DNA of 64,000 nucleotides from Butyrivibrio sp. AE3004 (lineage in GTDB: Bacteria > Bacillota > Clostridia > Lachnospirales > Lachnospiraceae): assembly GCF_000703165.1 (NCBI RefSeq), contig NZ_JNLQ01000001.1, positions 248,001 to 312,000 of the forward strand. The letters are read 5' to 3'. Shown in pieces: positions 2,448 to 6,397 of this stretch. A model generated the notes under the pieces. It saw only the letters and a list, made by a program, of their open reading frames with translations. It did not search any database and was not told where the DNA came from. How positions within the stretch are numbered: position 1 is the first letter of the stretch; each line of letters begins with the position of its first letter. The position numbers and the translations under genes are program-made.

Positions 2448-4232
2448 TTACGAAGCCCTCACAAACTGAGCGGAGTACAACTCGTAGTAAGCGCCCTTCT
2501 TGGCCATGAGGCTCTCGTGGCCACCCCACTCCAGAATTCCGCCATCGTCAATGACAAAGATCTTGTCTGCATTCTTGATGGTTGAAAGTCTGTGTGCCAC
2601 CACAAAGGAAGTCCTCTTTTTAAGAAGCTCTTCGATTCCCTGCTGAACCAGGATCTCAGTTCCGGTATCTATGCTGGCAGTTGCTTCGTCCAGGATCAGT
2701 ATCTTTGGATCCGTCAAAAGAGTTCTCGCAAATGCCACCAGCTGTCTCTGGCCATTGGAAAGTCCGCCACCCCTTTCGGTGATGACCGTGTCATAGCCCT
2801 TCTCCAGCTTGCTGATGAAGTCGTGGGCATGTACCGCCTTGGATACTTCTATCATATCTTCGTCAGTGGCATCGGGTCTTCCGTACTTGATGTTGTCCCT
2901 GATGGTTCCCGAGAACAGATAGTTGTCCTGGGTCATGATGCCGAACTGATTTCTCAGAGACTGGATGGTAACCTTGCTAATGTCATATCCATCCACCATA
3001 ATTCTTCCCGACTTAGTGTTGTAGAAGCGGCTAAGAAGGCTGACAATGGTTGTCTTCCCGGCACCTGTGGGACCAACAAGTGCGATGGTCTCGCCCTGCC
3101 CGGCTGTGAAACTCACATCGTGGAGAATGTCCACATCGGGCTCATCGGGATAAGCAAAGGTAACATGGTCAAATTCCACATTTCCCTTGATCTCCGGAAG
3201 ATCAATAGCCTTCTCGCCATCCTTTACCAGAGGATCCATATCCATAATCTCATAAACCCGCTCCGCAGATGAGAGGTTGGTTATGAGCTTGTTGTAGTAA
3301 TTGGCCAGGTTCCTAATGGGACTAAAGAACATCCCCAGGTACAGTACGAAGGCCGACAGAGTTCCCAGTGATTCCTGTGTCACACCGAGTTTTGTCACGG
3401 CCAGGTAATACAGTGTTGCTGTTCCAAGACCACCTGCAATCTCAATTGTGGGACTGTACAAGTCAGCAATGAGAACTGCGGATCTGAAAGCATTGATGAC
3501 TTCGTCTACTATTCCGTTGAACTCTCTGGAGGATTCCTCCTGAGCGTTGAAACTCTGAATTACCGACACGCCCTCGATACCCTCGTGGATAAATGCTGTC
3601 ATGTTGGAGTCCTTCTTCTTCCATTTCTGCCATCTCTTGTGGGCAAGAATCTCACAGAAGAACAGTCCCATCATGATGATGGGAACTGCCACTGCCGCAG
3701 AAAGAGCAAGTACCGGGCTCTTGATGATCATTATTGCCAGGATCACCACAAGGCTTATGGCCTCAGGAGCCAGGGTTGTAATGGTACTGGAGAGAACTTC
3801 CTTAAGCGCATTTACGTCGCCGGTTACCCTGGCCAGGATCTTGCCCGAAGGCCTCTGATCAAAGAAATCCACTCCCAGCTCCTGAATGTGAACATAGAGC
3901 TTTCTTCTGATGTTCCTGATCATGTCATTGGAGATGTCGGCCATTATGCGCCTCCAGACTCTGGTGGCGGCGTAGTGTATGAGAGCCATGGCCACCATGA
4001 TACCTGCCATAATGAACAGGCCTTTTTCATTCTTGTCTATGATCTCGTCGTTTATTACTTTTTCAATCAGCAGAGGATAAGTGGTTGAGATTGCTACTGT
4101 GATCAGTATAAGTATTGTTACCAGTACAATCTTTCCTTTGTATTCCAAAAGATTTTTAAGAAGACGCCCTAGTACATCAAGCTTTAGGGTTTCCTTTAAA
4201 TCCTCATCCTCTCTGGTGCTGTTTATTGCCAT
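2448..4232 (-). CDS. ABC exporter half-transporter, BmrD/YheH-like (catalytic-site subunit)
   Basis: A 594-residue exporter half: six-helix membrane domain (about 30-325) then an ATPase domain (about 350-590). Walker A GPTGAGKT is at 387-394, Walker B ends in LDEATAS with the catalytic glutamate at E516, and the switch histidine is H547. The signature is LSNGQ (491-495), not LSGGQ. Heterodimeric exporters such as BmrC/BmrD and TM287/288 pair a subunit with a changed signature with one whose Walker B is changed, and the upstream gene has just that change. The gap to the upstream gene is 15 bases, so they are one operon. Likely role: export of a drug or other amphiphile; substrate unknown. Confidence 0.92.
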   Translation of the reverse strand: MAINSTREDEDLKETLKLDVLGRLLKNLLEYKGKIVLVTILILITVAISTTYPLLIEKVINDEIIDKNEKGLFIMAGIMVAMALIHYAATRVWRRIMADISNDMIRNIRRKLYVHIQELGVDFFDQRPSGKILARVTGDVNALKEVLSSTITTLAPEAISLVVILAIMIIKSPVLALSAAVAVPIIMMGLFFCEILAHKRWQKWKKKDSNMTAFIHEGIEGVSVIQSFNAQEESSREFNGIVDEVINAFRSAVLIADLYSPTIEIAGGLGTATLYYLAVTKLGVTQESLGTLSAFVLYLGMFFSPIRNLANYYNKLITNLSSAERVYEIMDMDPLVKDGEKAIDLPEIKGNVEFDHVTFAYPDEPDVDILHDVSFTAGQGETIALVGPTGAGKTTIVSLLSRFYNTKSGRIMVDGYDISKVTIQSLRNQFGIMTQDNYLFSGTIRDNIKYGRPDATDEDMIEVSKAVHAHDFISKLEKGYDTVITERGGGLSNGQRQLVAFARTLLTDPKILILDEATASIDTGTEILVQQGIEELLKKRTSFVVAHRLSTIKNADKIFVIDDGGILEWGGHESLMAKKGAYYELYSAQFVRAS

Positions 4233-4247
4233 ATAATATGCACCTCC

Positions 4248-5981
4248 TTATTCGCAGGCAGCCATAGCTTTGTGGTAGTCGCCATACTGAGCCTCATAGG
4301 TGCTGTAATACAGACCGCCTTTTCTGATGAGCTCAGCGTGGGTTCCTCTCTCGGCCACCCTTCCGTTTTCAAGTACAAGGATCTCATCGGCATCCTTCAC
4401 TGAAGAAATACGGTGTCCGATGATGATCTTGCTCATATCATTCTTTTCCTGAAGTTCCTGCTGAATTGCAGCTTCAGTTTCCATATCCAATGCGGATGTA
4501 GAGTCATCCAACACAAGAAGATCTGCTTTCTTGGCAAGTGCTCTCGCAATGGAAAGCCTCTGTTTCTGCCCTCCGGAGAGGCCGATGCCTCTTTCTCCGA
4601 TGACAGCGTCATAACTGTCGGTTATCTTCTCGACAAATTCCTGTGCGTGAGCACTCTTGATGGCAGACTTAACGGTTCTTACGTCCATTGTGTCTTTGAA
4701 TCCAAGTCTGACGTTCTCAGTAATGGTATCCGAGAAAAGAAATACATCCTGCGTTACAACCGAGGAAAACGCTCTTACATCGCTAAGTGGCATCTTCATA
4801 ATGTCTTTTCCCTCGATCTTGATGCTGCCGCTTGTGACGTCGTAGAACCTCTCAATAAGGTTTACGATGGTGCTCTTTCCGGCACCGGTGGCACCCATGA
4901 TTCCAAGGGTCTTACCTTTTCCTAAGTTAAAACTGACATCGTCCAAGATTGTCTTGCCGTCAATTTTGAAGCTCACATGATCGAAGCTGATCTCACCTGA
5001 CTTGCCAGCTTCCTTAAGCATCTCTTTTGCCGGGGTATCTGTAATCTCGGGCTCGGTCTTCATAACCTTGGTAATTTTCTTGTAGCCTGCAAGCCCTTGG
5101 GAAACCAGAGAAAGCATCCAACCAAGATTTTCAATGGGCCATACTACCTGGATTGAATATGACACGAATGCAACAAGTGTTCCGTAGGTGATGCTGCCCT
5201 TGATGGCTGCGTAGCCGCCGATGGCCACCACCAGAACCTGCATGATCTTGGGAATCAGGCCGATAAGAGGATCGCTGTCCGCAAGATCTGAAGCAAACTG
5301 CTTGTTAGCATCGCTGTAGGCTTCGTTCTTTTCATCGAACTTTTCCATCTCAAGGCCCTCGGCAGAGAATGCCTTTACAGTTCTGACACCTGAAATGTTC
5401 TCTTCAACAACCTTTGTGAGAGCGGCGTTTCTTTCGCTGATATCGTCGTAGTCCTTGCCCAGCTTTTTTTCAAGGTGAAGGGCCACATATGCAAGAGGCG
5501 GCATAAATGCCAGCGGGATTATGCTGAGCTTCCAGTTCAGTGTGATCATACAGATTACAACGCCTATGAAATAAACGGTTGCCTCAGTCAAAAGCATGCC
5601 CACAAATCCCGTAAGATCCCATACAGATCCGGCATCATCCTTGACTCTGGCCATAAGCTCACCGGTGTTGGTCTTGTCAAAATAGCCCTTATTCAGGGAG
5701 AATATGTGCTTCATCATGTCTTTTCTAAGTCCCGATGCCACGCGGCAACCGGACATGTCACACAGGAACTCCTTAACAAACTGGAAGAAGGCTCTTCCAA
5801 GGCCTGCTGCAACAAAGAGAATAATATCTCTCCTGAATATATCCATATTTCTGCCCACGATAACATCATCAACCATGGACAGGGTAACGAAAGGCAGCAT
5901 TACATCAATTGCGGTGCTGCAGATCAGAGATATTCCTCCAATCAGGTATCGCCACCAGTTTTTTATCAAATACTTTTTCAT
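4248..5981 (-). CDS. ABC exporter half-transporter, BmrC/YheI-like (degenerate-site subunit)
   Basis: A 577-residue exporter half with a membrane domain (about 10-300) and ATPase domain. Walker A GATGAGKS is at 363-370 and the signature LSGGQ (468-472) is canonical, but Walker B reads LVLDDSTSALD, with D493 where the catalytic glutamate should be; H523 is kept. With the partner's LSNGQ this builds one active and one degenerate ATP site. It is the first structural gene of the operon and follows a leader peptide and three hairpins at 6087-6315, an arrangement known for B. subtilis bmrB-bmrC-bmrD. The start has GAGAGG upstream. Confidence 0.92.
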   Translation of the reverse strand: MKKYLIKNWWRYLIGGISLICSTAIDVMLPFVTLSMVDDVIVGRNMDIFRRDIILFVAAGLGRAFFQFVKEFLCDMSGCRVASGLRKDMMKHIFSLNKGYFDKTNTGELMARVKDDAGSVWDLTGFVGMLLTEATVYFIGVVICMITLNWKLSIIPLAFMPPLAYVALHLEKKLGKDYDDISERNAALTKVVEENISGVRTVKAFSAEGLEMEKFDEKNEAYSDANKQFASDLADSDPLIGLIPKIMQVLVVAIGGYAAIKGSITYGTLVAFVSYSIQVVWPIENLGWMLSLVSQGLAGYKKITKVMKTEPEITDTPAKEMLKEAGKSGEISFDHVSFKIDGKTILDDVSFNLGKGKTLGIMGATGAGKSTIVNLIERFYDVTSGSIKIEGKDIMKMPLSDVRAFSSVVTQDVFLFSDTITENVRLGFKDTMDVRTVKSAIKSAHAQEFVEKITDSYDAVIGERGIGLSGGQKQRLSIARALAKKADLLVLDDSTSALDMETEAAIQQELQEKNDMSKIIIGHRISSVKDADEILVLENGRVAERGTHAELIRKGGLYYSTYEAQYGDYHKAMAACE

Positions 5982-6086
5982 TGTTTTACCTCTCTATCTA
6001 CAAACGCACAGTTGTGCGCTCTACACTCCATTTCGCTCGTTGCGAAACGCTCATCCCCCAGATGAGCAGCAACCTAAGCGGAGCGG

Positions 6087-6122
6087 TTTTTATTTCATAG
6101 GCAATTCCTATGAAATAAAAAA
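6087..6122 (-). promoter_or_regulatory. 15-bp perfect hairpin in ABC exporter leader
   Basis: Bases 6087-6101 are fully complementary to 6107-6121 around the 5-base loop CAATT. The stem includes the T-run of the terminator at 6111-6147, so the two structures are mutually exclusive or form in sequence. It could act as an antiterminator, or as a terminator for the opposite strand. Confidence 0.55.
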
Positions 6123-6147
6123 GCGACAGGATCGGAGACCCTATCGC
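6111..6147 (-). terminator. Second intrinsic terminator in ABC exporter leader
   Basis: On the minus strand GCGATAGG pairs with CCTGTCGC (one mismatch) around nine bases and is followed by TTTTTTATTT. It lies 97 bases beyond the leader peptide stop and 130 bases before the exporter start. Confidence 0.7.
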
Positions 6148-6187
6148 CTAGTTATCGCCTGTAGCACATCGCGCGCATGTGCCCAAT

Positions 6188-6225
6188 AATATAAAAGGCG
6201 TGGTCTCCTGAGCGGATACCACGCC
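6188..6225 (-). terminator. First intrinsic terminator, just after leader peptide
   Basis: On the minus strand GGCGTGGT pairs perfectly with ACCACGCC around 13 bases and is followed by TTTTATATT. It starts 18 bases after the leader peptide stop codon, close enough for a stalled ribosome to alter folding upstream of it. Confidence 0.8.
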
Positions 6226-6243
6226 AAAATATGCCTGATAGTA

Positions 6244-6315
6244 TTACTTGGCAAACTTCTGCGAGGTAACCACAATTACCATGTTCAGTCCATCAATATG
6301 TCTAGTCTTAATCAT
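6244..6315 (-). CDS. 23-residue leader peptide of ABC exporter operon
   Basis: A short frame begins at ATG 6315 behind an ideal AAAGGAGG site 8 bases upstream and ends at TAA 6246-6244. The peptide is MIKTRHIDGLNMVIVVTSQK followed by FAK. Its MVIVV run recalls arrest motifs such as IAVV and IFVI in Erm leader peptides. It is followed at once by a strong terminator, then a second one, then the exporter pair. The layout matches ribosome-mediated attenuation as described for bmrB upstream of bmrCD: a drug-stalled ribosome would stop the terminator forming. The coding call rests on ribosome site, position and context; the length is too short for homology by eye. Confidence 0.7.
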   Translation of the reverse strand: MIKTRHIDGLNMVIVVTSQKFAK

Positions 6316-6368
6316 TGCGTTTACCTCCTTTCTAAAAAAATAAGTTTACAGTGTCACAAGCAACTACT

Positions 6369-6397
6369 ACGTTATGCCAAATGAAAATCTTTGTCAA
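6369..6397 (-). promoter_or_regulatory. Promoter of leader peptide/ABC exporter operon
   Basis: Minus strand shows a perfect TTGACA (6397-6392), a 17-base spacer and TAACGT (6374-6369). The leader ATG is about 55 bases downstream. Confidence 0.6.

Follow-up and report, generated by a model that had tools for sequence, protein, structure and literature searches.

In mechanism, the locus described here comes closest to three known leaders, those of ErmK, Mef(E), and TlrB. Their shared [KR]-x-[KR] sequence, the +X+ motif, arrests ribosomes in the presence of macrolides or ketolides; the arrested ribosome holds x in its P site and the second basic residue in its A site (PMC8298421, PMC6851288). 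The ErmDL, TlrB, and Mef(E) leaders use the motif for stalling (PMC8298421, PMC6851288, PMC4335068). As reported in PMC6851288, only a subset of +X+ motifs stalls with a given drug. ErmK/ErmD of Bacillus combines a +X+ leader (MTHSMRLR..., with the ErmK stall site at MRLR) with transcription attenuation at two adjacent intrinsic terminators (PMC4335068). It controls an rRNA methylase, whereas the locus here would control an exporter, and the likeness is drawn from a citing description. In mef(E)/mel of Streptococcus, a +X+ leader (MTASMRLR) and an intrinsic terminator precede a macrolide efflux operon, and macrolides induce read-through; as described there, the system has one terminator and a leader of 8 codons, whereas the leaders here have 22-25 codons and an earlier motif (PMC4335068). 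In the tlrB (yxjB) leader of B. subtilis, macrolide stalling at R-x-R relieves an upstream terminator. That motif, however, is C-terminal in a peptide of 9 residues, the account given identifies no overlapping antiterminator, NusG pausing is needed, and the inducer is tylosin rather than erythromycin (PMC6851288). Relative to these leaders, the present locus appears to be new in its gene and peptide, in the early position of +X+ within a longer leader, in a pairing that sequesters the Shine-Dalgarno (SD) sequence (1:2 in the segment numbering used below), and in a conserved complementarity between two terminators (4:5).

Three further systems share parts of the design. The bmrB-bmrCD locus of B. 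subtilis has a leader peptide, a terminator, and an antiterminator before a heterodimeric ABC exporter (PMC4191407). Its terminator lies inside the coding region, whereas the first terminator here (T1) begins 18 bases past the leader stop; a single terminator is described there (PMC4191407). Its exporter halves are only distant relatives of those here. The 'ABC-leaders' of lactobacilli are predicted attenuators before a multidrug export operon in Lactobacillus gasseri and L. johnsonii, likened here by description and not by sequence, and the main text of that report mentions neither Butyrivibrio nor Lachnospiraceae (PMC2965389). The E. coli trp attenuator shares the 1:2 / 2:3 / 3:4 logic, of which the stalling is described in PMC4191407; here a drug stall would take the place of uncharged tRNA, and a second terminator is proposed to be coupled via 4:5. 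Among the literature matches listed, no title or abstract opening describes an attenuator of a Lachnospiraceae exporter.

The exporter locus and its conserved leader

The window is a stretch of 64,000 nt (G000:C1:248001-312000) from a 4.47 Mb genome in six contigs. All parts of the putative switch, and the exporter pair that it precedes, lie on the minus strand:

6369..6397, minus strand: promoter, TTGACA (6397-6392), 17-base spacer, TAACGT (6374-6369), read directly
6321..6329, minus strand: segment 1, the leader's SD AGGAGGTAA, read directly; pairs with segment 2
6244..6315, minus strand: leader peptide gene of 23 codons, an open reading frame encoding MIKTRHIDGLNMVIVVTSQKFAK and a stop
6301..6309, minus strand: Lys-Thr-Arg codons 3-5, the +X+ motif and proposed stall site
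6261..6273, minus strand: segment 2, GTGGTTACCTCGC, codons V15-S18 plus one base, nearly invariant at the nucleotide level; pairs with segment 1 or 3
6214..6225, minus strand: segment 3, the 5' arm of T1 in the predicted fold
6197..6208, minus strand: segment 4, the 3' arm of T1; changes within T1 keep the pairing; complementary to segment 5
6185..6225, minus strand: terminator T1 (3:4; hairpin 6197-6225) with U-rich tail TTTTATATTATT, predicted fold
6133..6147, minus strand: segment 5, the 5' arm and loop of the second terminator; pairs with segment 4
6117..6149, minus strand: second terminator T2 (5:6; hairpin 6121-6149) with T-run, from predicted fold and simple terminator scan
6069..6124, minus strand: dispersed palindromic repeat, outside the switch
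4248..5981, minus strand: ABC exporter half 1, 577 aa, LSGGQ intact, DD at the expected catalytic Glu (motifs read by eye)
2448..4232, minus strand: ABC exporter half 2, 594 aa, with DE retained and LSNGQ as its signature (motifs read by eye)

We propose that this region is a ribosome-mediated, trp-like transcription attenuator of the exporter operon, operated by a macrolide or ketolide stall at the early +X+ motif (probability about 0.7). As a computational prediction, a drug pump of a rumen bacterium appears to be switched on by an antibiotic-jammed ribosome, the antibiotic probably being a macrolide. The leader, its +X+ motif, the terminator hairpins, and the complementarities, together with their conservation, are established from sequence and its comparison; the mechanism built on them would run as follows. 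Without drug, the ribosome would cross the leader and cover segment 2, while in an untranslated leader segment 2 would pair with the leader's own SD (1:2). Either way, T1 (3:4) and T2 (5:6) would form and transcription would stop. With a macrolide or ketolide in the tunnel, the ribosome would stall at +X+ (within codons 3-7), occluding segment 1 and freeing segment 2. Segment 2 would then take the 5' arm of T1 (2:3) before segment 4 is synthesised, so that T1 fails, and the released segment 4 would pair with the 5' arm and loop of T2 (4:5), so that T2 fails and the exporter is transcribed by read-through. If correct, Butyrivibrio possesses an intrinsic drug-sensing exporter switch, and the scheme predicts which of its codons and base pairs matter.

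Both exporter halves carry ABC_membrane and ABC_tran domains, and the asymmetry of DD/LSGGQ against DE/LSNGQ is typical of heterodimeric exporters. The pump of mef(E)/mel, an MFS pump plus ABC-F protein, is of a different type. By exporter sequence, the closest named relatives are Butyrivibrio. When half 1 was compared with solved structures, eukaryotic ABCB proteins topped the list, and bacterial half-transporters scored about equally with one another: TM288 307 bits, 5mkk_B (presumably TmrB) 303, and BmrC/YheI 303. The first-pass annotation had called the pair 'BmrCD-like'; it is an ABC exporter pair, but that label holds only loosely, since TM288 and 5mkk_B score as well as BmrC/YheI. The window lies on a contig of 430,542 bases beside one of 3.63 Mb, so a secondary replicon may carry the exporter in this strain.

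The leader was compared across 23 exporter loci with exporter identity of at least 76%: the window itself, L088-L107, L110, and L009. The first 21 of these besides the window come from a single contig scan that yielded 32 loci, the other 11 being at most 34% identical, and L009 is from another genus. An SD-led frame of 22-25 codons is present in 23/23. The promoter pattern TTGACA-N17-TAATGT or TAACGT occurs in 17/23 leaders and related -10 boxes occur in 4 more; the sequence of L096 ends short of the promoter, and in L094 the pattern match fell on another TTGACA. T2 is found as a hairpin in 23/23 leaders, with a weak T-run in L009 (CCCTTTG) and an interrupted one in L102, and T1 in 21/23, L096 and L103 being without it. 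In the window the two hairpins fold with -19.3 kcal/mol (T1, z -4.6) and -18.2 kcal/mol (T2, z -4.9), and the fold of the whole leader has z = -6.7, with 0/100 shuffles equally good. A simple scan of the window recovered T2 and one other minus-strand site (5800-5781, within the exporter gene), and listed neither the promoter, whose -10 box matches 3/6, nor T1, which it missed probably because of an A-G mismatch in the T1 stem. The promoter, the strong ribosome site AGGAGGTAA at 6329-6321, the 23-codon frame at 6315-6244, the terminator 18 bases past its stop, and the second terminator had all been claimed in the first-pass annotation and are borne out.

A covariance model, R1, was built from an alignment (A1) of the 21 leaders with T1. 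It matches 22/79 genomes of the genus at E<1e-9, namely all of the only 21/79 with an exporter ortholog (E<=1e-200) and G369. Among 397 genomes of the family, R1 matches G000 and G290 only, with 7 candidate places scored per genome, such that weak matches may be missed; a DNA pattern search gives the same two genomes. Judged by this comparison the short frame is a real leader. The first-pass annotation had made its proposal hinge on conservation of the frame in orthologous loci, and there the leader is found throughout. In G369 (L141, G369:C18, about 1500-2020) the leader is intact, but of the exporter genes behind it only a short, decayed remnant is left.

Weaker R1 matches (E 1e-3 to 1e-2) lie before another gene or are antisense matches. 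Those in L144-L148 (about 1500-1800 of each locus, E 9e-4 to 5e-3) are sister-like leaders, MSANRTEIVNEYSMMTSVYAF and MRVRKTEIVIEYSMMTSVCVF, each with a hairpin of terminator type and an SD, GCGAGGTAATC, that looks like the complement of ATGACCTCG in the leader. They precede a frame for an RsgA-like GTPase, which stands alone in L145 and is fused behind an acetyltransferase-like part in L146 (both named by eye). In the same loci the gene has GGAGAC as its ribosome site, and a GGTCTCC upstream of the gene is complementary to it.

The leader peptide and the proposed stall site

All 20 distinct leader peptides contain [KR]-x-[KR], which begins at the third, fourth, or fifth residue and so lies within residues 3-7. 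The motif takes the forms KTR, KIR, RIR, RIK, RVR, KMR, and KLR, with K and R interchanging. Permutation of residues gives 2.5 of 20 peptides expected with +X+, a figure that yields no strict probability because the rows are related. In distant homologues the motif is often missing, though the leader and 1:2 persist.

The first-pass annotation had placed arrest later, on an MVIVV run, by an Erm-type hydrophobic mechanism. The peptide in the window does contain MVIVV, which is reminiscent of the IAVV/IFVI of Erm leaders. The residues before VTS vary between leaders, however (NKEIVVTS, NNSSTVTS, DIRIVDTS), and the VVTS positions tolerate D, A, T, and M while their codons, GTG GTT ACC TCG, are nearly fixed, third positions included. 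This pattern indicates a stretch conserved as RNA and not as peptide. In the stall scan, moreover, the window's leader loses all 2:3 pairs once the P site has reached I14, as a ribosome there masks segment 2, and the scan therefore places the useful stall early. Arrest on MVIVV is on these grounds very improbable, and an Erm-type IFVI/IAVV arrest leader was rejected. The IVV residues looked for across orthologous leaders are variable, +X+ being kept instead, and in the modelled folds of the window's leader 2:3 is compatible with an early +X+ stall and not with one at the codons from I14 onward.

A different objection is that the attenuator is real but its signal is a general slowing of translation, by lincosamide, chloramphenicol, or uncharged Lys/Arg tRNA, and that no macrolide action at +X+ is involved. 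The bmrB-bmrCD system responds to ribosome-targeting drugs such as lincomycin, with no arrest motif named in that description (PMC4191407). In the window's leader a pause anywhere in codons 1-10 would suffice for 2:3 if the SD is covered, and the distant homologues that often have no +X+ point the same way. What speaks for the motif is that its charge pattern is kept in 20/20 peptides while the codons and the K/R identity change, which is predicted neither by general slowing nor by starvation for a single amino acid. We consider general slowing unlikely, and favour a macrolide or ketolide stall at +X+.

Predicted pairings at the first terminator

In the window the four duplexes have predicted energies of -12.7 (1:2), -12.5 (2:3), -18.6 (3:4), and -16.1 kcal/mol (4:5). 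Shuffled letters do as well in 0.6% of cases for 1:2, 1.9% for 2:3, and 0.8% for 4:5. For 1:2, 90/91 cells are paired over seven positions, against 84.4 when shuffled, and 0/2000 shuffles reach as high; this table comprises 13 distinct segment pairs and draws on all 23 close leaders together with 13 hand-picked distant ones of plain register, the other distant leaders being left out. With the chosen distant relatives included, 1:2 shows compensatory exchanges of U-A to C-G and A-U to G-C. Within the close leaders the 1:2 pairs hardly vary and T1 has two pairs with double changes. Taking 1:2 and T1 together in that set, the cell count and the covariation score exceed all 500 shuffles, while two of five covariation measures are not above shuffles: double-change pairs, which 70/500 shuffles reach, and pair types (500/500).

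The pairing of the SD with the end of the coding region extends to more distant exporters. At 28 loci with 46-59% identity, drawn from 53 genomes matched other than G000 and G290, 16 carry a short frame that is led by an SD and can pair with it through its 3' half (p<=0.01), against 2/28 on the opposite strand and 0/28 inside the gene. Given such frames before homologous exporters elsewhere in the family, the device may be family-wide, with different sensing peptides. The same SD-to-coding-end pairing is seen with different peptides in L010, L014, L017, L018, L019, L034, L036, and others.

The antiterminator 2:3 in the window consists of 9 pairs with two U-U mismatches. A stall was modelled by masking the RNA from its 5' terminus through the first 15 nt beyond the stalled P site. 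Under this mask, and with the transcript cut off just ahead of segment 4, all 21 leaders that contain T1 form 2:3, with 7.9-9.9 expected pairs, whereas none of the 21 has any when the ribosome stands at the stop codon and leaves the SD free. With the stall at the x codon of +X+ and the SD covered, at least 8 pairs form in 23/23 leaders, 2:5 replacing 2:3 in the two without T1. A strict 30-nt footprint at the stall codon that leaves the SD free is less effective: 17/23 keep at least 6 pairs and 6/23 have only 3-5. In the absence of any ribosome, the transcript ending before segment 4 already prefers 2:3 in 6/21 leaders, and ribosomes at both stop and start bring 2:3 back to at least 5 pairs in 11/21.

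The mutually exclusive pairings 1:2, 2:3, and 3:4 of a trp-type attenuator are all present as predicted pairings, with no covariation in 2:3, whose pairs hardly vary. No tested stretch pairs with segment 2 better than segment 3 does in 15/21 leaders, and an equal or better partner exists elsewhere in 6/21. Swapping segments between species hardly alters the 2:3 energy. In full transcripts at equilibrium under the stall mask, T1 wins in 14/21, 2:3 is favoured in 5, and 2 are mixed. As the terminators usually win at equilibrium, the switch would need kinetics, with 2:3 forming before segment 4 is made. In the trp attenuator, too, the terminator is more stable than the antiterminator. A direct 2:4 antiterminator was considered and rejected, as native segments (-9.8) have no advantage over swapped ones (-10.0) and the pairing is weak (-7.1) in L101 and L102.

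The second terminator and the dispersed repeat

At least 6/7 core positions of 4:5 pair in all 21 leaders that contain T1, and all 7 do so in 13/21 if G-U is included. Three fully paired states co-occur: GGAGACC/GGUCUCC, GGAGAUC/GAUCUCC, and GGAAAUC/GAUUUCC. When other 15-nt stretches lying outside T1 and T2 were tried against segment 4, none was a better partner than segment 5 in any of the 21 leaders. If segments 1-3 are blocked while segment 6 is still unmade, 4:5 forms with 6.9-10.9 pairs in 21/21. Under the stall mask, again before segment 6, it has at least 6 pairs in 16/21 and just 2-4.4 pairs in L093, L097, L100, L110, and L009, and with a ribosome at the stop it has at most 0.7 pairs in 17/21. 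In the window, L088, L104, and L095, 4:5 forms before segment 6 whether the RNA carries no ribosome or one at the stop, and on this modelling 4:5 is not stall-dependent in these four.

These complementarities suggest that one stall may be relayed through both terminators, the freed 3' arm of T1 serving as the antiterminator of T2, so that 1:2, 3:4, and 5:6 are exchanged for 2:3 and 4:5. By the modelled folds, one stall could open both terminators in most leaders, and a folded T1 would keep segment 4 off T2. In the clade of the window itself, where 4:5 forms regardless of a stall, the checkpoint would rest on kinetics alone, and this slightly lowers the odds that we give the relay, which stand at somewhat under even. 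Were it true, leakage past a folded T1 would be caught at T2 while true induction would pass both, making a two-stage RNA checkpoint; it offers a testable point on how tandem terminators might be opened by one event. In L096 and L103, which have no T1, segment 2 may be wired directly onto T2, with 2:5 duplexes of -13.4 and -14.6 kcal/mol, respectively; this is only suggestive, as L100, which bears T1, also reaches -13.4. Of 19 distant leaders, 17 have a terminator hairpin, but in only 5 does at most one background stretch beat the terminator 5' arm as partner for segment 2, so that neither 2:3 nor the relay is general among distant homologues. Following this family-wide test, the relay is claimed only for Butyrivibrio and close relatives.

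The simpler possibility is that 2:3 switches T1 alone, T2 being independent and leaky and 4:5 incidental. T2 wins at equilibrium in 20/21 full transcripts under the stall mask and still does in 17/21 when segments 1-3 are blocked; in the clade of the window 4:5 needs no stall; L096 and L103 do without T1; and exchanging segments across species costs 4:5 little (-13.9 to -13.2). Incidental complementarity sits poorly, however, with segment 4 having its best tested partner in segment 5 in 21/21 leaders, with the co-occurrence of three fully paired states, and with the formation of 4:5 by the stalled transcript in 16/21. We think a switch confined to T1 a real though doubtful contender. Far less probable is that nothing is sensed at the ribosome, the frame and terminators merely keeping basal expression low, or control of the region lying with a protein or ligand. 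The T1 and T2 hairpins are strong by themselves, which speaks for this reading, but it leaves the conservation of +X+ and 1:2 and their co-occurrence with the exporter unexplained. None of the four Rfam matches in the region reaches its gathering score, the best having 21.2 bits where 36 are required, and a riboswitch of an Rfam family was rejected. The first-pass reading of the region as a ribosome-mediated attenuator is supported in its conserved leader, tandem terminators, and fitting alternative pairings, and unsupported in MVIVV as the arrest motif and in the third hairpin.

That third hairpin, a 15-bp palindrome (6121-6087, -15.3 kcal/mol, z -7.6), is present and overlaps the T-run of T2, but does not belong to the switch. 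None of the other 22 aligned leaders has the palindrome, and a similarity search across the genomes of the genus matched 6069-6124 to dispersed copies in 23 others. In L088, whose exporter is 95% identical, different sequence lies beyond the T-run in place of the palindrome. A role as an anti-T2 device was rejected on this distribution; termination at T2 would, in addition, precede synthesis of the palindrome's 3' arm. The repeat is composed of TTTTTATTTCATAGG...CCTATGAAATAAAAA and CGCTCCGC, with variants across the 23 genomes. In its own genome the exact palindrome form occurs at one place, with two diverged matches elsewhere. In the examples inspected, copies often adjoin a terminator-like hairpin. 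Nearer the exporter start, the hairpin-rich stretch 6034-6076 matches G314 (twice, 88%) and G373 (86%) and may be another dispersed element.
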